From: Syntrophomonadaceae bacterium | GTDB taxonomy: Bacteria > Bacillota > Dethiobacteria > DTU022 | Reading direction: 5' to 3' | DNA length: 10,988 nucleotides | Assembly (NCBI GenBank): GCA_003564055.1 | Contig: PWSG01000027.1 | Location: forward strand, 1 to 10,988 | Part shown: in pieces, positions 2 through 7,839 of the stretch | How the letters are laid out: each line of letters begins with the position of its first letter | How positions within the stretch are numbered: position 1 is the stretch's first letter | Notes under the pieces: model-generated | The model's input: only the letters and a program-made list of their open reading frames with translations | Database searches by the model: none | What the model was told of the DNA's origin: nothing | Program-made: the position numbers and the translations under genes

Positions 2-1771
2 CTCGATCAATTTGGAGAGCGTAACTACCCGGCTACTCAACAGCTGGGTTGGAGCGACCTGCAGGAAAACGAAGGCACAATTAAAAATGTGCGTCTCTGG
101 GATTACCGGCCTCTATTGACTACTTTTAACGAGCTTCAGGCTATCCGTCCATATTACCGTTTTGTAGACGTCGATATCGATCGGTACATGATTAATGACG
201 AATACCGCCAGGTTATGCTGTCTGCCCGGGAAATGGACAAAAGCCGCCTGGCCGATCAGGCTCAGACCTGGGTAAACCTTCATTTGCATTTCACTCATGG
301 TTACGGGGTTGCGATGACCCCTGTTAATGAGGTAACAGCAGAAGGAATGCCGCGTTACTTCCTGGGAGATATCCCGCCGGCGGGAGACCTTGAGCTTGAA
401 AACCCATCAATTTATTTTGGTGAGTTAACCAACGATTACGTTATTATTAATACCGACACACCCGAATTTCATTATGCTACTGCCGGTGATGAAAACGAGT
501 ATATCTTTTACGACGGCGATGCGGGAATTCGCCTGCAGTCTGTTTTCCGCAGAGCCATGCTGGCCCTGAGGTTTGCAGAATACAGGATTCTCATTTCCAA
601 CGAGTTGAGCAGTGACAGCAGAATAATCTTCGAGCGCAATATTCACGAAAGGGTAAGGAAAATTGCTCCTTTCCTTCGTTACGATAGAGATCCCTATATT
701 GTTATCAGTGATGACCGGCTGTTCTGGATCCAGGATGCTTATACCGTCACTGACCGCTATCCATATTCAGCGCCGTACGACAATATAAACTACATTCGCA
801 ACTCGGTTAAAGTTGTCATTGACGCCTACAACGGGGATGCCACATATTACATAACCGACCCGGATGATCCGCTGGTTCAGACTTACAAAAAAATATTCCC
901 TGATCTATTTAGGCCGGTTGAAGAAATGCCTGAAGACTTGATGGCTAACATACGCTATCCTTTAGACCTCTTTGACGTGCAGTCCCGGTTACTTCAGCTT
1001 TACCATATAACCGATGCAACCAGGTTTTACAGCAGGGAGGATCTCTGGGCTATTCCCTTTGAGCAGTCTTTCGGCCAGGAGCAGCTAATGGAACCTTACT
1101 ATACAATCCTGCTGCTGCCCGGTTATGATCAGCCGGAATATGTTTTAATCCTTCCCTTTACACCTGCGGCAAGAAATAACATGATTGCCTGGATGGTGGC
1201 CCGCTGTGACCAGCCCAACTACGGTGATGTTGAAATTTTCAACTTCCCCAGGGAAAGGGTCATCCTCGGGCCAAAGCAGATAGAGAACAGGATAGATCAG
1301 AGCACTGAAATATCAGAACAGTTTACTCTCTGGGGGCAGGTCGGTTCGCGGGTAATCCGTGGCAACCTGCTGGTTTTGCCTATTAACGATGCATTGCTAT
1401 ATGTAGAACCTATCTTCCTGGAAGCGGAAACAGGTGGTCTGCCAGAACTGGCCAGGGTTATAGTTGCTTTCGATGAAACTGTTGTTATGGGAGAAACCCT
1501 CGAAGAGGCCCTGATCAGGGTCTTCGGCGAAATTGATGAACTGCCGCCTGATATTCCGGTTGAAGATATTCCTGATGATTTTGAACTTGATGATCCAATG
1601 CCGGACGTGGAAATTGAACTTGAAGCCGAACTTATCGATTTAATTGTCCAGGCCCGGGTAGCTTACGAAGAAGCCCTGCAGTATCAGCAGGAAGGCGACT
1701 GGGCCGGTTACGGCGAAAAAATCAGGGAGCTCGAACAGATCCTGAACGATATGGATCGCTTTATACCTTAA
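2..1771 (+). CDS. UPF0182 family membrane protein, C-terminal part (5' truncated by window)
   Basis: This is the C-terminal 589 residues of a UPF0182 (COG1615) protein. The family has roughly 900 residues, with several N-terminal membrane helices followed by a large extracytoplasmic domain; its function is unknown. The frame is open to the left edge, so the GTG at 89 is an internal valine and not the start: the family motif (N)VRLWDYRPLL crosses it. Other family landmarks, in order, are IRPYYRFVDVDIDRY, QVMLSARE, THGYGVAMTPVNEVT, PSIYFGE, SRIIFERNIHERV, KIAPFLRYDRDPY, NYIRNSVKVVIDAY, IRYPLDLF, NMIAWMVARCD, LWGQVGSRVIRGNLLV and LLYVEPIFLEA. After the core comes a strongly acidic stretch (about 1545-1630), then a helical tail (about 1630-1765) with the heptad-like, GDWAGYG-containing ending typical of Firmicutes members. 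All predicted membrane helices lie outside the window. The family assignment is very secure; the biochemical role is unknown. Confidence 0.95.
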   Translation, partial: LDQFGERNYPATQQLGWSDLQENEGTIKNVRLWDYRPLLTTFNELQAIRPYYRFVDVDIDRYMINDEYRQVMLSAREMDKSRLADQAQTWVNLHLHFTHGYGVAMTPVNEVTAEGMPRYFLGDIPPAGDLELENPSIYFGELTNDYVIINTDTPEFHYATAGDENEYIFYDGDAGIRLQSVFRRAMLALRFAEYRILISNELSSDSRIIFERNIHERVRKIAPFLRYDRDPYIVISDDRLFWIQDAYTVTDRYPYSAPYDNINYIRNSVKVVIDAYNGDATYYITDPDDPLVQTYKKIFPDLFRPVEEMPEDLMANIRYPLDLFDVQSRLLQLYHITDATRFYSREDLWAIPFEQSFGQEQLMEPYYTILLLPGYDQPEYVLILPFTPAARNNMIAWMVARCDQPNYGDVEIFNFPRERVILGPKQIENRIDQSTEISEQFTLWGQVGSRVIRGNLLVLPINDALLYVEPIFLEAETGGLPELARVIVAFDETVVMGETLEEALIRVFGEIDELPPDIPVEDIPDDFELDDPMPDVEIELEAELIDLIVQARVAYEEALQYQQEGDWAGYGEKIRELEQILNDMDRFIP

Positions 1772-1951: not shown

Positions 1952-2016
1952 TTGGGTGAGGGTTTACTGCTATCTGGACACGATGTCACTAACCTTTCTT
2001 TAAGGAGAATAACTCT

Positions 2017-3615
2017 GTGTCAGCCGAAGAATATATAATCTACACTGATGGAGCCTGCTCAGGCAACCCCGGTCCCGGCGGCTGGGGTGCGGTAATCCTT
2101 GATGGGGACTCTGTACAGGAAATTAGCGGAAGCGCTGACGAAACAACCAACCAGCGCATGGAACTGCAGGCCGCGGTAGAAGCCCTGCGCCATGTCCCGC
2201 CCGGCAGCAAAGTTAAACTGTATAGTGACAGCGCTTACCTGGTCAACTGTTTTAATGAGGGTTGGATGAAACGCTGGCTGAGCAATGGCTGGCAGAGCAG
2301 CAAGGGTAAAAAAGTAGAGAACCAGGATCTGTGGGAACTGCTTTTTGAACTAGCAGAGATAAACAGGGTCGAGTGGATCAAGGTCAAGGGCCATGCTGAT
2401 GATCGGTATAACCAGTGCTGCGACAAACTGGCACGCGGAGCTATTAATAAAAGTCAGAATAAGGGCGCTGGAGATGAAAATTTATCTGCAGAAGCAGAAG
2501 ATACAGGCAAATTTAAGACTAAAGGCGGTCGGAAATTGCGGCGCATTGGCTTGCTCACCGGTGGCGGCGACTGTCCAGGCTTAAACGCGGTTATCCGCGC
2601 GGTTGTTAAAGGAGCAGGCTATAATTATGATATCGAATCAATAGGCTTTAATAATGGTTTCAAAGGCCTGGTGGAAAATGATGCGGTAGTGCTCGATGAC
2701 TATGCGGTATCGGGAATTCTTACCCGTGGGGGAACCATACTCGGTACTTCTAATCGTGATAATCCTTTCGACTTCAGACCCGGAGGTTCCGATTACCAGG
2801 AAACCGGTGTAGATCGCTCTTCTGATGCTGTTGAAAATTTGGCAAAGAGAAATATTGAAGCGCTTGTTGTGATCGGTGGTGATGGCAGTTTGCTTCTGGC
2901 CCACCGTTTTAGCAAACTGGGCGTTCCGGTAATCGGCATCCCCAAAACAATTGACAACGATCTGCCTGCTACTGATATTACCTTTGGTTTTGATTCGGCG
3001 GTTACTACTGCTACTGAAGCGATCGATAAGATTCATACCACCGCCGAATCACATCACCGCGTTATGGTTGTAGAAGTAATGGGCCGTCATGCAGGATGGA
3101 TTGCCCTGCAGGCCGGCATGGCCGGTGGCGGCGACATTATACTTATTCCAGAACTGCCCTTCAAATATTCTTATGTTGCCGAAAAAATTACGGAGCGCCG
3201 CCGGAGAGGTAAAAAATTCAGTATCGTTGTTGTCGCTGAAGGGGCATATCCTGCCGGTGAAGAGCCCATCTATCAGCAAAAAGGTGATGTAAAAAGACTT
3301 GGTGGAATTGGGACCGTGGTATCGCGTGAAATTGAAAAACTTACCGGCATGGAAAGCAGGGCTACGGTTTTAGGACACCTGCAGCGCGGTGGCAGCCCCA
3401 CCTCTTACGATCGGGTTCTGGCTACTCGTTTTGGAGTTAAAGCAGTTGAACTCTTTCAAAAGGGGCATTTCAATGAAATGGTTTGCCTTAAGGGAAACCA
3501 GGTTAAGTCGGTTGATCTTGAAGAAGCAGTTCAAGGAACCAAACGGGTTGATCCGGACAGCGAACTGGTGCGCACAGCTCTTGCCGTAGGAACTTCATTC
3601 GGCCATCTCCTTTAA
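2017..3615 (+). CDS. RNase HI / 6-phosphofructokinase fusion protein
   Basis: One uninterrupted 532-residue ORF joins two cytoplasmic enzymes. Residues 5-143 are a type I ribonuclease H, which cleaves the RNA of RNA-DNA hybrids. Its catalytic carboxylates D11 (TDGACSGNPG), E49 (RMELQ), D71 (YSDS) and D136 and the loop histidine H126 (KGHAD) are all present, as is the W/K-rich basic handle (about 83-103). Residues 144-173 are a polar, charged linker. Residues 174-532 are a full-length PfkA-type phosphofructokinase (fructose-6-phosphate to fructose-1,6-bisphosphate), with GGGDCPGLN (182-190), GGDGS (287-291), PKTIDND (309-315, catalytic base D313) and MGRHAG (355-360). The Gly at 290 (E. coli 104) is the ATP-type residue; the Lys at 310 (E. 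coli 124) is typical of PPi-type and mixed group III enzymes, so ATP use is predicted but not certain. The GTG start has AAGGAG at 2002-2007. The stop overlaps the ecfT stop by 4 nt. An internal TTG (2536) could also yield PFK alone. Confidence 0.93.
   Translation: MSAEEYIIYTDGACSGNPGPGGWGAVILDGDSVQEISGSADETTNQRMELQAAVEALRHVPPGSKVKLYSDSAYLVNCFNEGWMKRWLSNGWQSSKGKKVENQDLWELLFELAEINRVEWIKVKGHADDRYNQCCDKLARGAINKSQNKGAGDENLSAEAEDTGKFKTKGGRKLRRIGLLTGGGDCPGLNAVIRAVVKGAGYNYDIESIGFNNGFKGLVENDAVVLDDYAVSGILTRGGTILGTSNRDNPFDFRPGGSDYQETGVDRSSDAVENLAKRNIEALVVIGGDGSLLLAHRFSKLGVPVIGIPKTIDNDLPATDITFGFDSAVTTATEAIDKIHTTAESHHRVMVVEVMGRHAGWIALQAGMAGGGDIILIPELPFKYSYVAEKITERRRRGKKFSIVVVAEGAYPAGEEPIYQQKGDVKRLGGIGTVVSREIEKLTGMESRATVLGHLQRGGSPTSYDRVLATRFGVKAVELFQKGHFNEMVCLKGNQVKSVDLEEAVQGTKRVDPDSELVRTALAVGTSFGHLL
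2521..2538 (+). promoter_or_regulatory. Possible internal ribosome site and TTG start for stand-alone PFK
   Basis: AAAGGCGGT (2521-2529) differs from the ideal AAAGGAGGT at one base. It is followed after 6 nt by an in-frame TTG (2536-2538, codon 174). Initiation there would give a protein beginning M-R-R-I-G-L-L-T-G-G-G, which is how separate phosphofructokinases start, with a normal family length of 359 residues. The position at the domain boundary suggests the remains of, or a working, separate pfkA start. That it is used is inference; the bases encode K-G-G-R-K in the linker in any case. Confidence 0.4.
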
Positions 3616-4439
3616 ATCTGAGGAGCTGCGGAAATAATTATATAGATCATCAGGATAGTAAATAACAGCATAATCAAGCCGGCACCGAGATCAACCCTGC
3701 CCATGTGCAGGGTTTTCATTTTTGTCCTTCCCTTACCACCGCTATAGCTGCGGGCTTCCATGGCCACGATTAACTCTTCTGCCCGCTTGAATGCATTAAT
3801 AAACAGGGGCAGGAAAACAGGAAATAGCTTCCTGGTTTTTTGAATAAAACTGCCCCGATCGAAAGCTACTCCCCTGGCCATTTGTGCCTTGATTATTTTA
3901 TCCAGCTCTTCAGCTAAAATTAAAACAAAACGCAGGGCAATAATCATGGTCATTACCAGTTCCTGGGACGGAAGGCCAATTTTTCTAAGCGGTTTTAGTA
4001 AGCTTTCCAACCCGTCTGTAAGGTTGACAATAGAAGTAGTGAGGGTCAGAATTGTAGTTACCGTAAAGAGGAAAAGAACACGAAGGGTAATTATATTGCC
4101 CATGTGCAACCCCGCATCGGTTGCTGTGAAAATCCACCATGAAAATAAAATATTCGCATCGGGAGTGGAATATAAAAAGAATTGAAAAATCCACATTAGG
4201 AGCAGCACGGGCAGCATAGGTTTTAGGCCGCAGAGTGCATAACTTAAAGGAATGCCGGCAAAAACTATTATCCCGGCGGTAAATATTAGAAAAAACCCAT
4301 AAGCCTCGTAAGATTTTATAAAAAGCAGCAGGGTAATGAGCATGGTGGCGGCAATTATTTTTGTTCTTGGGTCCAGGCGGTGGATAGCTGTTTCCCCCGG
4401 CAGGTATACCCCCAGAGTTATATTCCTGGTTAGTTCCAA
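3612..4439 (-). CDS. ecfT: ECF transporter transmembrane component EcfT
   Basis: EcfT is the integral-membrane scaffold of an energy-coupling factor transporter: it links the two ATPases to the substrate-binding S component. The 275-residue protein starts with the family's GVYLPGETAIHRLDPRTKI segment. It then has hydrophobic helices at about 27-42, 46-62, 74-92, 114-136, 160-178 and 250-271. Both cytoplasmic coupling motifs, which dock into the ATPase grooves, are present: AQMARG (185-190) and AMEARSY (226-232, with ARS in place of the commoner ARG). The length is normal. The start is TTG (4437-4439), overlapping the end of ecfA2 by 10 nt, with AGGTG 8 nt upstream; this implies translational coupling. 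It is the last gene of the operon, and its stop codon overlaps that of the convergent RNase HI-PFK gene. A plus-strand terminator is embedded near its 3' end. Confidence 0.93.
   Translation of the reverse strand: MELTRNITLGVYLPGETAIHRLDPRTKIIAATMLITLLLFIKSYEAYGFFLIFTAGIIVFAGIPLSYALCGLKPMLPVLLLMWIFQFFLYSTPDANILFSWWIFTATDAGLHMGNIITLRVLFLFTVTTILTLTTSIVNLTDGLESLLKPLRKIGLPSQELVMTMIIALRFVLILAEELDKIIKAQMARGVAFDRGSFIQKTRKLFPVFLPLFINAFKRAEELIVAMEARSYSGGKGRTKMKTLHMGRVDLGAGLIMLLFTILMIYIIISAAPQI
3693..3724 (+). terminator. Plus-strand intrinsic terminator inside ecfT
   Basis: AACCCTGC (3693-3700), loop CCATGT (3701-3706) and GCAGGGTT (3707-3714) form a perfect 8-bp stem, followed on the plus strand by TTCATTTTTG. 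This is a good rho-independent terminator 78 nt beyond the RNase HI-PFK stop, and the only one visible for that gene. It lies within the opposite-strand ecfT coding sequence, over codons for about residues 239-249, the cytoplasmic stretch before the last membrane helix. In the ecfT direction no T-run follows the stem, so only plus-strand transcripts should stop here. Confidence 0.72.
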
Positions 4440-5305
4440 TGCTTTTTCACCTGCCCTTCCTGCAGGTTTTCAGCAATTTTTTGCAGAGCTTCTTCCAGGT
4501 TTAATACAGCGTCGGGCATGTTGTATCCACAGGAGCTTAACCGCTCAGCAATTATCATTATTTCGGGCATTTCCAGTCCGATTGCTTTTAGATCAGCAGT
4601 TTTTCTAAAAACCTGCCTGGTATTATCATCTTTGACAATTCTGCCCCGATCAACAACAATAATCCGCTCAGCAAGTTCAGCTACCTCATCCATACTGTTA
4701 GATATGAAGATAATTGTAATCTTTTCTTCGCTGTGCAGTTTTCTGATCACTTTAAGTATTTCTTCACGACCACGTGGATCAAGCCCTGCAGTGATATCAT
4801 CTAAAACCAGGATTTTTGGCCTGCAGGCTAAAACCCCAGCGATTGCAACCCTTCTTTTTTGTCCTCCGCTTAAGGCAAAAATGTCGCGGTCGTTAAAACT
4901 TGTGTAATCAAGGCCAACCTGGGACATTGCCCTGGATACTCTTTTTATTATTTCCGGAGATTTAAGCCCCTGGTTTTTTGGCCCAAAAGCAATATCTTCA
5001 CCAACTGTAGCGGCGAAAAGCTGGTAGTCTGGATTTTGAAAAACATAACCAACATCGTGCCGTAAGCGGATTAAGTCCGCGTTTTTATCAGCAGTATCGC
5101 AATTGTTTACAATTACCCTGCCCTGCTGGGGTATAAAAAGAGCATTAAAGTGTTGAGCCAGCGTGGTTTTCCCTGCCTGCGTCGGGCCTATAAGGCCAAC
5201 AAATTCACCATCTTCAATATGCAGGGTTACTCCCTGCAGAACCTCTTTTTCAAAAGGTGTGCCCTTTTTATAGCTAAAGCAGAGATCGGTTACTTCAATT
5301 GGCAT
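4430..5305 (-). CDS. ecfA2: ECF transporter ATPase EcfA2 (degenerate catalytic residues)
   Basis: This is the second ABC ATPase of the ECF module, 291 residues and cytoplasmic; it is expected to pair with EcfA1 under EcfT. Visible motifs are Walker A GPTQAGKTT (40-48), Q-loop Q90 in VFQNPDYQLF, a fully canonical signature ALSGGQKRRVAIAG (144-157), Walker B ILVLDDITAGLDP (165-177) and the switch region IFISNSMDEV (199-208). Three positions depart from the usual form: Q43 replaces a Walker A glycine, D170 replaces the catalytic glutamate (LDD-I for LDE-P), and N203 replaces the switch histidine. The K46, D169 and signature residues remain, so nucleotide binding is likely but hydrolysis at its own site may be weak. 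The ATG start lies inside the 3' end of ecfA1 (16-nt overlap); the nearest GAGGAG is 14 nt upstream, rather far. The C-terminal tail (about 235-291) is of the usual ECF ATPase type. Confidence 0.94.
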   Translation of the reverse strand: MPIEVTDLCFSYKKGTPFEKEVLQGVTLHIEDGEFVGLIGPTQAGKTTLAQHFNALFIPQQGRVIVNNCDTADKNADLIRLRHDVGYVFQNPDYQLFAATVGEDIAFGPKNQGLKSPEIIKRVSRAMSQVGLDYTSFNDRDIFALSGGQKRRVAIAGVLACRPKILVLDDITAGLDPRGREEILKVIRKLHSEEKITIIFISNSMDEVAELAERIIVVDRGRIVKDDNTRQVFRKTADLKAIGLEMPEIMIIAERLSSCGYNMPDAVLNLEEALQKIAENLQEGQVKKHWN

Positions 5306-6129
5306 AGAAAGTTAATAATCTCCTCGGAGCGAATAATGTTATCCGGCAAATTTATTCCTCTTAAACGCAGCCCCTGCGCCAGCTGAGTAGCAACAGGGTA
5401 ATCAAGGCCGAGGCTAATAATCTTATCTCCCCGGCCAAACACTTCACAGGGTGTGCCTTCCATCTCAATGATTCCCTGGTCCATAACAATCATTCTGTCA
5501 CAGTGGATTGCTTCATTCATGTAATGGGTAAGTAAAATAGTGGTGATTTTTTCATCCCGATTCAAGCGCAGGATGCTTTCCAAAACTTCACGTCTGCCGC
5601 GCGGATCTAAATGTGCTGTAGGTTCGTCGAGAACAATACAGCCTGGCTTCATCGCTAACACACCGGCAATGGCAACGAGCTGTTTCTGACCTTCTGAAAG
5701 CAGGTTGGGAGATTCATAACGCAAGTCCTGCAGGTTCAGAGTATCCAGAGCCTGGTTAACCCGTTCCCTGATCAGAGCGGGAGGGAGACCCAGGTTTTCA
5801 GGTCCGAAAGCAATATCTTCTTCAACAATGCTGCTTATTAACTGATTATCGGGATTTTGAAAAACCATGCCAACCAGCTTGCGGATGGTCGAAACATTAT
5901 TTTTGTCAGCAACCGAAAGGCCATTAACTAATACTTTGCCTCCAGTGGGAGTTAATAAGCCGTTAAAGTGACGGGCAAGGGTTGATTTTCCAGAGCCGTT
6001 TTGACCGGTAATGGCCAGCATTTCGCCACGTTTAACCTGCAGGTTGATACCGTTTAAAGCTTTAATTTCTTTACCGCTTCCTGCACGGTAAGTATAAGAC
6101 AGATCAATTGCTTCAATTAGAGGATTCAA
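5290..6129 (-). CDS. ecfA1: ECF transporter ATPase EcfA1 (LSEGQ signature variant)
   Basis: This is the first ABC ATPase of the ECF module: 279 residues, cytoplasmic, hydrolysing ATP to drive micronutrient uptake. Walker A GQNGSGKST (42-50), Q-loop Q91 in VFQNPDNQL, Walker B CIVLDEPTAHLDP (164-176, catalytic E169) and switch histidine H202 (LLTHYM) are all canonical. The signature motif is not: it reads LSEGQ (144-148), with Glu in place of the first signature glycine. In a dimer that signature faces the Walker motifs of EcfA2, which are themselves degenerate. The start is TTG (6127-6129) with AAGGGGC about 9 nt upstream. No other normal start codon lies between it and the in-frame upstream stop, which is the ecfS stop. 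It follows ecfS after 48 nt and overlaps ecfA2 by 16 nt. The TTG start is probable, not proven. Confidence 0.95.
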   Translation of the reverse strand: MNPLIEAIDLSYTYRAGSGKEIKALNGINLQVKRGEMLAITGQNGSGKSTLARHFNGLLTPTGGKVLVNGLSVADKNNVSTIRKLVGMVFQNPDNQLISSIVEEDIAFGPENLGLPPALIRERVNQALDTLNLQDLRYESPNLLSEGQKQLVAIAGVLAMKPGCIVLDEPTAHLDPRGRREVLESILRLNRDEKITTILLTHYMNEAIHCDRMIVMDQGIIEMEGTPCEVFGRGDKIISLGLDYPVATQLAQGLRLRGINLPDNIIRSEEIINFLCQLK

Positions 6130-6177
6130 AGTATTAAAGCCCCTTACGTGTAATATAATAACAAGACAATAACATAC

Positions 6178-6717
6178 TTAACTGACAGGGGGCCTGTCTT
6201 CCGATGTTCTGATCCTCTGAATACCTTTAACAAGAATTACTGTTAATATTGCAGCAACTATTAATTCTGGCACACCGTGCAGGATACCTATCGATAAAGA
6301 TACTTCAAAAGGAAGGTACCCTCTTAAGGTTACCATACCCAAAACCAGTGCTGTGTTAGTGGCAGAGCCGAAAGCGCCGGCCAATACTAAGGCTAAAATG
6401 TTATTTATATTTTTCGTGGAAACATAAATTAAGTAAGCAACAATACCGATGAAAAGGCGGGGCAGAACTGATACCAGGGGATCGGCAAAAAAAGGAGCTC
6501 CCGGCTGAAGAAAACTGAACAAGCCGAAAATAGCGCCAGTTATTAAACCTACTACCGGTCCTTCCAAGACTCCTCCCAGAATAACCGGTATATGCATAAT
6601 CGTTGCATGCCCGGCCGGTGTGGGCACAGGTATAAAGCCCAGGCGGGTAACACCGAGCAAAATAGATATAGCTCCAAGAATACCTGAGATGACAATTTTA
6701 CGGACAGATAAGCTCAA
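6178..6717 (-). CDS. ECF transporter substrate-binding S component, substrate unknown
   Basis: This small membrane protein is the substrate-capturing subunit that would join the EcfA1/A2/T module encoded just downstream. About 179 residues hold some five to six hydrophobic helices, starting with SVRKIVISGILGAISILLG. Loop residues such as RLGFIPVPTPAGHATIMHIP and the run of small residues GGVLEGPVVGLITGAIFGL match the general PF12822-type ECF S family. I cannot assign the substrate by eye; gene order marks it as a dedicated (group I type) system. The frame could begin at TTG 6750 or ATG 6735, but neither has a ribosome site. TTG 6717 has AGGGGG (6727-6732) 9 nt upstream and gives the usual short N-terminus M-S-L-S-V-R-K, so I chose it. 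The C-terminus is basic then polar and lies in the cytoplasm. Confidence 0.88.
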   Translation of the reverse strand: MSLSVRKIVISGILGAISILLGVTRLGFIPVPTPAGHATIMHIPVILGGVLEGPVVGLITGAIFGLFSFLQPGAPFFADPLVSVLPRLFIGIVAYLIYVSTKNINNILALVLAGAFGSATNTALVLGMVTLRGYLPFEVSLSIGILHGVPELIVAAILTVILVKGIQRIRTSEDRPPVS

Positions 6718-6726
6718 CTTGAAATT

Positions 6727-6732
6727 CCCCCT
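6727..6732 (-). promoter_or_regulatory. Ribosome binding site deciding the ecfS start
   Basis: Read on the minus strand this is AGGGGG, 9 nt before TTG 6715-6717. It overlaps the codons just after the ATG at 6735, which has no site of its own. It therefore favours TTG 6717 over the two longer starts. Confidence 0.55.
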
Positions 6733-6800
6733 CATGATGTATTTGACCAAAATTAGGTTCTACACGAGTATTTACGAATCCTTTAAAAAATTATGTTTTT

Positions 6801-6966: not shown

Positions 6967-7389
6967 ATGAATAGAAGATTTACTTTATACATGGTAGTTA
7001 TTATCATAATTATCATAATTATTACTTCATGTGGAAATGAAGTGCAAACCCGGCCCCCGGGAAGCACTTCTGTCGGTGGTGCTGTTATTAAAACAACTCT
7101 TGAATTGAAAGATGAGTTTGAATCAATTGAGCTTCAAACCAACTTTGATCCCAACCAGGAATTTTACTTCTATTTTCACAATAACCTGCCTTTTGGGTCC
7201 GAACAGATTACCGTACAGCTTATTAGTAACAGCGATGACAGAATCTTGGCCGAAACTAACTACGATGTAAATCCCGAGGAGATTGAGTGGTATGATAAAG
7301 TATGGTTTGGCAGTCGGGGTATGTATACTATTGCGGTAAAAATTGACTCAGAGGTCAGGGCTACGCGAGAGGTAGTAATAGAGCAATAA
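6967..7389 (+). CDS. Small lipoprotein of unknown function
   Basis: The 140-residue product starts with a lipoprotein signal: basic MNRR, a hydrophobic stretch including eight consecutive isoleucines (12-19) and the lipobox I-T-S-C with Cys22. After processing it should be anchored on the outer face of the membrane. The mature part has a polar, Pro/Gly/Ser-rich linker to about residue 40. About 100 residues with alternating hydrophobic and polar positions follow (for example EFYFYFHN, ITVQLI, YTIAVKI, TREVVIEQ), suggesting a single beta-sandwich or Ig-like domain. I recognise no family. The ATG has a strong site, AAAGGGGT (6953-6960), 6 nt upstream. The gene appears monocistronic, with its own terminator at 7449-7479. 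Confidence 0.85.
   Translation: MNRRFTLYMVVIIIIIIIITSCGNEVQTRPPGSTSVGGAVIKTTLELKDEFESIELQTNFDPNQEFYFYFHNNLPFGSEQITVQLISNSDDRILAETNYDVNPEEIEWYDKVWFGSRGMYTIAVKIDSEVRATREVVIEQ
7000..7017 (+). repeat. 9-bp tandem repeat in the signal-peptide coding region
   Basis: ATTATCATA occurs twice in tandem (7000-7008, 7009-7017), followed by a partial third copy. It encodes most of the poly-isoleucine run of the lipoprotein signal peptide. Nine bases is three codons, so gain or loss of a unit would change the hydrophobic length by three residues without a frameshift. Confidence 0.6.
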
Positions 7390-7581: not shown

Positions 7582-7839
7582 ATGAAATTTAAGGTGCGCT
7601 TAGCTCTTGTAGCCGTTATTGTGCTGGTTATGTTTATCTTACATAACAGTTTCTGGCTTTGGGGTCTGGATGATCGGGTTCCCTTGCTCTTTGGATTCAT
7701 GCCCTTTGCTTTTTCTTTTTATGCGGGCTATACTATTTTAGCCGTAATCGCCATGAGGGCGATTATAACCCTGGCCTGGCCTGAACCGCCTGCAGATTTG
7801 CTGCAGCCGGCAGGTAGTGAGGAGTCTGCTGAAAAATGA
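7582..7839 (+). CDS. DUF3311-like small membrane protein, symporter partner
   Basis: This 85-residue protein has two predicted membrane helices (about 5-24 and 44-65), with the segment DRVPLLFGFMPFAFSFYAGY between them and a short acidic, Pro-rich cytoplasmic tail. The layout and the D-R-V-P-x-L-F-G-x-P-F core resemble DUF3311/YhdT-type proteins, which are commonly encoded just before sodium:solute symporters and thought to be accessory subunits. The ATG has a strong site, GGAGGT, at 7571-7576. Its stop codon overlaps the symporter start in an ATGA (7836-7839), a classic sign of translational coupling and balanced production. I found no convincing promoter in 7480-7570. Family assignment is by pattern only. 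Confidence 0.85.
   Translation: MKFKVRLALVAVIVLVMFILHNSFWLWGLDDRVPLLFGFMPFAFSFYAGYTILAVIAMRAIITLAWPEPPADLLQPAGSEESAEK

Follow-up and report, generated by a model that had tools for sequence, protein, structure and literature searches.

A recurrent in-frame fusion of RNase HI and 6-phosphofructokinase in a bacterial family, probably derived from neighbouring genes

The window analysed here, i.e. the whole 10,988-nucleotide stretch of contig PWSG01000027.1 from a Syntrophomonadaceae bacterium, carries at positions 2017–3615 of the plus strand a single open frame that starts with GTG, contains no internal stops and encodes a protein of 532 amino acids (computed mass 57.5 kDa), in which an RNase HI is joined to a 6-phosphofructokinase (PFK). 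The same architecture recurs in related genomes. As judged from sequence, we consider it fairly likely that the product is a bifunctional RNase HI–PFK enzyme that originated by operon fusion and whose halves act largely independently.

In Pfam, RNase_H matches residues 4–142 of the fusion with 136 bits (cut-off 25.8) and PFK matches residues 176–479 with 364 bits, and the cut-offs of the NCBIfam families ribonuclease HI (NF001236; 166.1 vs. 160) and PFK_mixed (TIGR02483; 449 bits vs. 430.55) are both passed. Among solved chains, the C-terminal part is best matched by ATP-dependent PFKs and the N-terminal part by an RNase H (3h08). The RNase HI domain (residues 1–145; 2017–2451, plus strand) begins at the GTG codon, which is preceded by a Shine-Dalgarno-like AAGGAG at 2002–2007 (plus strand) with a duplex energy of −8.2; the median Shine-Dalgarno energy at the RNase H starts of 26 fused genes is −10.3, a figure biased to strong values as the best of several candidates was taken. 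It is followed by a polar linker (residues 146–173; 2452–2535, plus strand) that varies in length and sequence among relatives (28 aa in the window protein, 13–58 aa across 71 fused clusters), and by the PFK domain, of the PFK_mixed type (residues 174–532 and the stop codon; 2536–3615, plus strand). The passed cut-offs thus uphold the first-pass annotation, which had proposed a complete RNase HI and a complete PFK in one ORF connected by a polar linker. An Rfam scan of the window gave nothing at the gathering score.

An artefact that joined two genes might be suspected in a draft genome of 337 contigs and 74% completeness, yet we give this explanation practically no probability because the fusion is found in 71 protein clusters and in 26 distinct, stop-free fused DNA sequences from different genomes. 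These rule out a sequencing or assembly error, and the 26 sequences also settle the earlier concern that a stop codon or a frameshift had been missed at the junction.

All four catalytic carboxylates of RNase HI are present, as the earlier reading of the DNA had stated. Among the 71 fused clusters, counting those that reach each position, D11 is found in 67 of 67, E49 and D71 each in 70 of 70 and D136 in 71 of 71, and each of the four occurs in 26 of 26 distinct fused DNA sequences; H126 is invariant where present in both sets. We take these residues to be the catalytic D-E-D-D motif and the flexible-loop histidine, respectively. In the PFK half, the catalytic and fructose 6-phosphate-binding positions, which we assigned on the assumption that those of E. 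coli and Bacillus PFK apply, are D313, R348, R357, E408, R448, H454 and R457, all invariant in an alignment of 54 chosen proteins, and R237, which is nearly so and is found in 70 of the 71 fused clusters. Furthermore, G290 of the GGDGS motif (residues 287–291) and K310 of the PKTIDND motif (residues 309–315) are both kept in 71 of 71 fused clusters. The C-terminal half is probably an ATP-dependent 6-phosphofructokinase; the rule that we assume for the phosphate donor is that the glycine in GGDGS indicates dependence on ATP as opposed to PPi and the lysine of PKTIDND the mixed type, a rule on which the searched literature held nothing. A separate alignment to Bacillus PFK, compared by eye, covers positions that we take to be allosteric effector-site residues: R21, R211 and K213 are kept, while R25 is replaced by K, R154 by H, E187 by D and H215 by F. 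The effector site of Bacillus PFK thus appears to be retained only partly in the fused PFK.

The search for further RNase_H–PFK architectures that had been suggested for this gene was productive: both domains occur together in 71 of the best 120 listed protein clusters; one of these is the window's own, and the remaining 70 are 68–82% identical to the window protein. With the RNase H part as query, the best 120 of 1649 matches contained no such architecture beyond the same 71 clusters (P0001–P0071). Among the matches listed, database names of the fusions cite one half only (‘ribonuclease HI’, ‘6-phosphofructokinase 1’ and similar). One fused protein (P0062) is filed under Candidatus Limnocylindrales, presumably another phylum than that of the fusion family, and may reflect a mis-binned contig or a transfer. 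Two other proteins (P0165, P0172; ~450 aa) contain an RNase HI, 60–65% identical to that of the window, with a YVTN-type beta-propeller domain as another unusual partner.

At the level of genomes, the fusion lies in one frame in 26 of the 43 genomes of the family, and in 9 of its 18 genus groups. In 24 further fused genomes the match to the window protein is full-length with 72–83% identity, and in G009 it comes as two pieces in one frame; two more genomes (G007, G011) are cut at contig ends in a manner fitting the fusion. The remaining genomes show rnhA and pfk as adjacent but separate genes (G021, G022, G024), both genes on different contigs (G019, G020, G023, G025), rnhA without a near pfk (G013, G018, G027), or neither rnhA nor a near pfk (G016, G017, G026, G030); G003 matches neither the fusion protein nor PF00075. 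Outside the family, a full-length match at an E value of 1e-120 was found in none of 54 other genomes of the class, 14 of which matched the PFK part alone. The genomes of the 18 nearest loci (L003–L020) are labelled Syntrophomonadaceae bacterium in 15 cases and Bacillota bacterium in 3, and many of them are presumably soda-lake sediment genomes.

Searching with the PF00075 profile, we found the fusion to be the only match in 24 of the 26 fused genomes; in the other two (G032, G033) a second PF00075 fragment lies at the end of a contig. One or more PFK matches besides the fusion occur in 21 of the 26. Hence, many of these genomes have other PFKs in addition to the fused one but a single RNase HI. 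Regarding the other copies about which the first-pass annotation had asked, family searches of the window genome (74% complete) show one RNase HI and one PFK, both in the fusion, and one RNase HII. With the same profile, RNase HI was not found in some near relatives, e.g. G017, which is 93% complete, and the family may therefore be able to do without it.

Phylogenies of both halves fit, as far as sequences can tell, a single origin of the fusion. In a PFK tree of 80 rows the 26 fused PFKs fall into a 100/100 clade, of which P0075, a standalone row, and one contig-split row are also members, and in an RNase H tree of 57 rows all 26 fused sequences form a single clade (100/97). A quick PFK tree of the 71 fused clusters and 46 standalone PFKs again requires two state changes rather than one, with P0075 nearest to the fused rows. 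The partial sequence P0074 was dropped from both PFK trees and the partial L132 from the first; the RNase H tree omits L021, L022, L026, L032, L034 and L039, whose genomes are already represented by kept rows, as well as L048–L082 and the contig-end fragment L131. P0075 itself, a PFK without RNase H on a long, weakly placed branch inside the fused clade, begins right at the PFK domain and is possibly a secondary split of the fusion.

The unfused relatives display what the arrangement before fusion may have been. In G021, rnhA and pfk are in different frames; in G022, 90 bases separate the TGA that ends rnhA from the in-frame ATG of pfk; and in G024 both genes share one frame with one TGA between them. 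The RNase HI of G024 (L114, 5663–6320) furthermore carries a linker-like tail of ~46 residues. With this tail, and with a single stop ahead of a PFK gene in the same frame, the locus resembles a state close to fusion. In the PFK tree, none of the three (G021, G022, G024) falls within the fused clade or on its stem; they sit on other branches and therefore illustrate the arrangement and not the actual ancestor. Altogether, we infer that the fusion most likely arose once, from operon neighbours, and was then kept.

Its genomic surroundings are largely conserved in a set of 19 loci (the window and L003–L020, of which L018 ends within RNase H). The gene for a UPF0182 membrane protein, which in the window spans 2–1771 (plus strand) and runs off the contig, lies upstream in 18 of the 19, the remaining locus having 33 bases upstream. 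A gene for a pyrimidine-nucleoside phosphorylase (pdp) is visible in 12 of the 19, and deoC in 11 of those 12. Downstream, a convergent gene for a CbiQ-type ECF transporter protein (window 3612–4439, minus strand) is found in all 17 loci with more than 1 kb of sequence, in L008 only after ~2.9 kb. This gene belongs in the window to an ECF transporter set (3612–6750, minus strand) of a weakly folate-like S component, two ATPases and a T component, which converges with the fusion gene such that the ends overlap by 4 bases. Beyond it, two plus-strand frames without a Pfam or NCBIfam match encode a likely lipoprotein of 140 aa with a hydrophobic start followed by a cysteine (6967–7389) and a membrane-like product of 85 aa (7582–7839), the latter overlapping the start of a sodium:solute symporter gene by 4 bases.

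In unfused relatives, the rnhA–pfk block contains a nucleoside phosphorylase, deoC and mostly also a second PFK and an aldolase. In G018, G021 and G022, for example, a PFK of the diphosphate-dependent subfamily (assigned by NF010675 for the G022 copy and by similarity to that copy for the others) and a class II aldolase come after rnhA or pfk. Three of the unfused loci (L114, 5663–8856; L115, 4675–7864; L116, 5803–8957) have rnhA, a PFK_mixed gene and a diphosphate-type PFK gene in tandem, so that two unlike PFKs adjoin each other after rnhA. The first-pass annotation had seen no metabolic logic between the two activities; this is too strong, given that unfused rnhA adjoins pfk among genes for pyrimidine-nucleoside phosphorylase, DeoC, a second PFK and class II aldolase, and that the cited part of PMC8152036 describes B. 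subtilis PfkA as a component of an RNA-degradation network.

The dN/dS values (NG86) indicate that both domains are under purifying selection. Medians over usable pairs are 0.116 for RNase H, 0.058 for PFK and 1.23 for the linker (130, 111 and 144 of 325 pairs, respectively, after excluding infinite dS or dS ≥2.5), and within the window's genus 0.104, 0.042 and 0.77 (16, 15 and 11 of 21 pairs, with infinite dS alone excluded); all of these are rough, and the linker values are inflated, because dS approaches saturation in most pairs and the linker is difficult to align. In the close pair L014–L016, with few changes, the values are ~0.28 for RNase H, ~0.23 for the linker and ~0.12 for PFK, and the linker contrast is absent.

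The reading we favour, two largely independent enzymes on one chain, would run as follows. Operon neighbours rnhA and pfk became fused in a single event, and both active sites would work. The RNase HI half would be the cell's type I RNase H, acting on the RNA of RNA/DNA hybrids, and the PFK half would make fructose 1,6-bisphosphate and assemble into the usual PFK oligomer, so that each oligomer would carry several tethered RNase H domains. The linker would be flexible and leave the halves to act mostly independently, while the fusion would fix joint expression at a set ratio and a shared location; drift, or a slight advantage of expressing both together, may account for its retention. We prefer independence by analogy with the actinobacterial RNase HI–CobC proteins, yet it is not assured, because the cited part of PMC7466739 reports that CobC influences the RNase activity of Rv2228c in vitro.

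Whether one chain is made at all bears on this interpretation, as the gene might also, or even mainly, be read as separate proteins, either from an internal start at the old pfk position or by cleavage of the linker. In the window, a TTG (2536–2538, plus strand) occupies the old pfk start position behind an SD-like sequence with an energy of −7.9. This value surpasses in strength the 10th percentile (−6.2) calculated for 421 ATG, GTG or TTG codons in internal positions, and it falls among those of the probable starts of 7 unfused pfk genes (−5.0 to −11.5). Leaky initiation inside the gene is thus possible at this codon, and a polar linker could be cut. However, only 12 of the 26 fused genes, and 3 of the 7 from the window's genus, have an ATG, GTG or TTG where pfk used to begin, and 6 of the 26 (L004, L089, L009, L092, L015, L107) have none of these codons in the linker up to the equivalent of G178, so that these six could yield PFK solely within the fusion, provided that translation does not begin at another codon or further downstream. 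We therefore regard two products as improbable. Functional coupling, i.e. a PFK oligomer that presents several RNase H domains for avidity towards hybrids and/or relays the sugar-phosphate and nucleotide state to them, thereby tying R-loop or primer removal to glycolysis, is unlikely in our view, though several observations point towards it. The fusion forms one group on both trees and has been retained over 9 genus groups, as would also be expected from a functional link, and the tied PFK is often an extra copy, whereas the RNase HI is single. An N-terminal passenger would be compatible with the PFK fold because some solved PFKs have long N-terminal parts: the match to 3opy_A starts only at its residue 203 and that to 2hig_A at residue 99. 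In B. subtilis, a link between glycolysis and DNA replication has been reported (cited parts of PMC1866360 and PMC9009071), PfkA has been connected with RNA decay (PMC8152036, same part), and the in vitro effect of CobC on Rv2228c mentioned above sets a precedent. Yet a linker so variable in length and so little conserved speaks against a tuned interface, pfkA, phosphofructokinase and RNase H go unmentioned in the main text of PMC1866360, and, according to the cited part of PMC8152036, SPR failed to confirm proposed contacts of PfkA with RNase Y or PnpA. The B. subtilis links hence make coupling worth a test, but not more. The first-pass suggestions that a PFK tetramer could present four RNase H domains, or that RNase H could follow the glycolytic state, are neither supported nor contradicted by these sequence data. 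Quite unlikely, too, is the more specific proposal that the PFK oligomer serves as a metabolite-sensing platform whose tethered RNase H domains act jointly on R-loops or primers, their activity or place following the glycolytic state; if true, this would be a hard-wired form of the metabolism–replication link known genetically in Bacillus subtilis.

The conserved surroundings suggest yet another role, namely a salvage module in which RNase HI helps to degrade hybrids and the sugar moieties enter glycolysis by way of PFK together with the neighbouring pdp, deoC and aldolase. In favour of it are the UPF0182 gene upstream, the frequent pdp and deoC and, in unfused relatives, the presence of a diphosphate-type PFK and fba as well. 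However, RNase HI yields oligonucleotides rather than nucleosides, gene neighbourhood is weak evidence for a pathway, and fba was not found beside the fusion itself in the 19 loci. Moreover, 28 of the 43 genomes, the window genome included, contain a transaldolase-family match, and PFK thus need not replace transaldolase there. We accordingly assign little probability to the salvage module, and do not favour a PFK that substitutes for transaldolase, an idea taken from the cited parts of PMC7029132 and PMC12203962.

Irrespective of coupling, the family clearly exemplifies how operon neighbours turn into one protein, its genomes showing the two genes apart, adjacent or fused, and the only RNase HI found in most of the fused genomes sits on a glycolytic enzyme. 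If the halves were coupled, the fusion would make the link reported between glycolysis and genome maintenance accessible in a single protein; if uncoupled, it would be a second independent case, after RNase HI–CobC, of an RNase HI retained on a metabolic enzyme with cross-talk not being required.

In the searched open-access literature we found no description of an RNase H–phosphofructokinase fusion, which agrees with the first-pass remark that no characterised protein of this design was known to its author; in the consulted part of a 2025 review of the PFK superfamily (PMC12203962), the words RNase, ribonuclease and fused are absent, and ‘fusion’ occurs 3 times. Compared with standalone enzymes, the fusion shares the whole domain, the passed cut-off and the catalytic residues with RNase HI (NF001236), to which it adds a C-terminal PFK, and likewise with PFK_mixed (TIGR02483), to which it adds an N-terminal RNase HI. 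The chains 3opy_A and 2hig_A resemble it in that extra residues precede the PFK fold, but their best-aligned stretch corresponds to the PFK part of the query and no RNase H part is reported in them. Known partners of RNase HI, in the cited part of PMC1950709, include the dsRHbd domain and, in the bifunctional SCO2299, an acid phosphatase. The closest likeness is to the RNase HI–CobC proteins (MSMEG_4305, Rv2228c, SCO2299), which also combine an N-terminal RNase HI, a variable linker and a C-terminal enzyme for small-molecule phosphates. According to the cited part of PMC7466739, both of their domains are under purifying selection, the linker is highly variable and the fusion is confined to one branch, all as seen here, and removal of CobC barely affects RNase H function in vivo; the authors favour drift. 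The partner in our case is, however, a PFK and thus of another family, and lineage and origin differ as well; NF005567, the family of bifunctional RNase HI/acid phosphatases, matches the window protein weakly (24.1 vs. 326) and nowhere beyond its RNase H part, which places it outside the CobC fusions. Finally, the RNase H half is more variable than its partner in the PFK fusion, whereas it is the less variable half in RNase HI–CobC.
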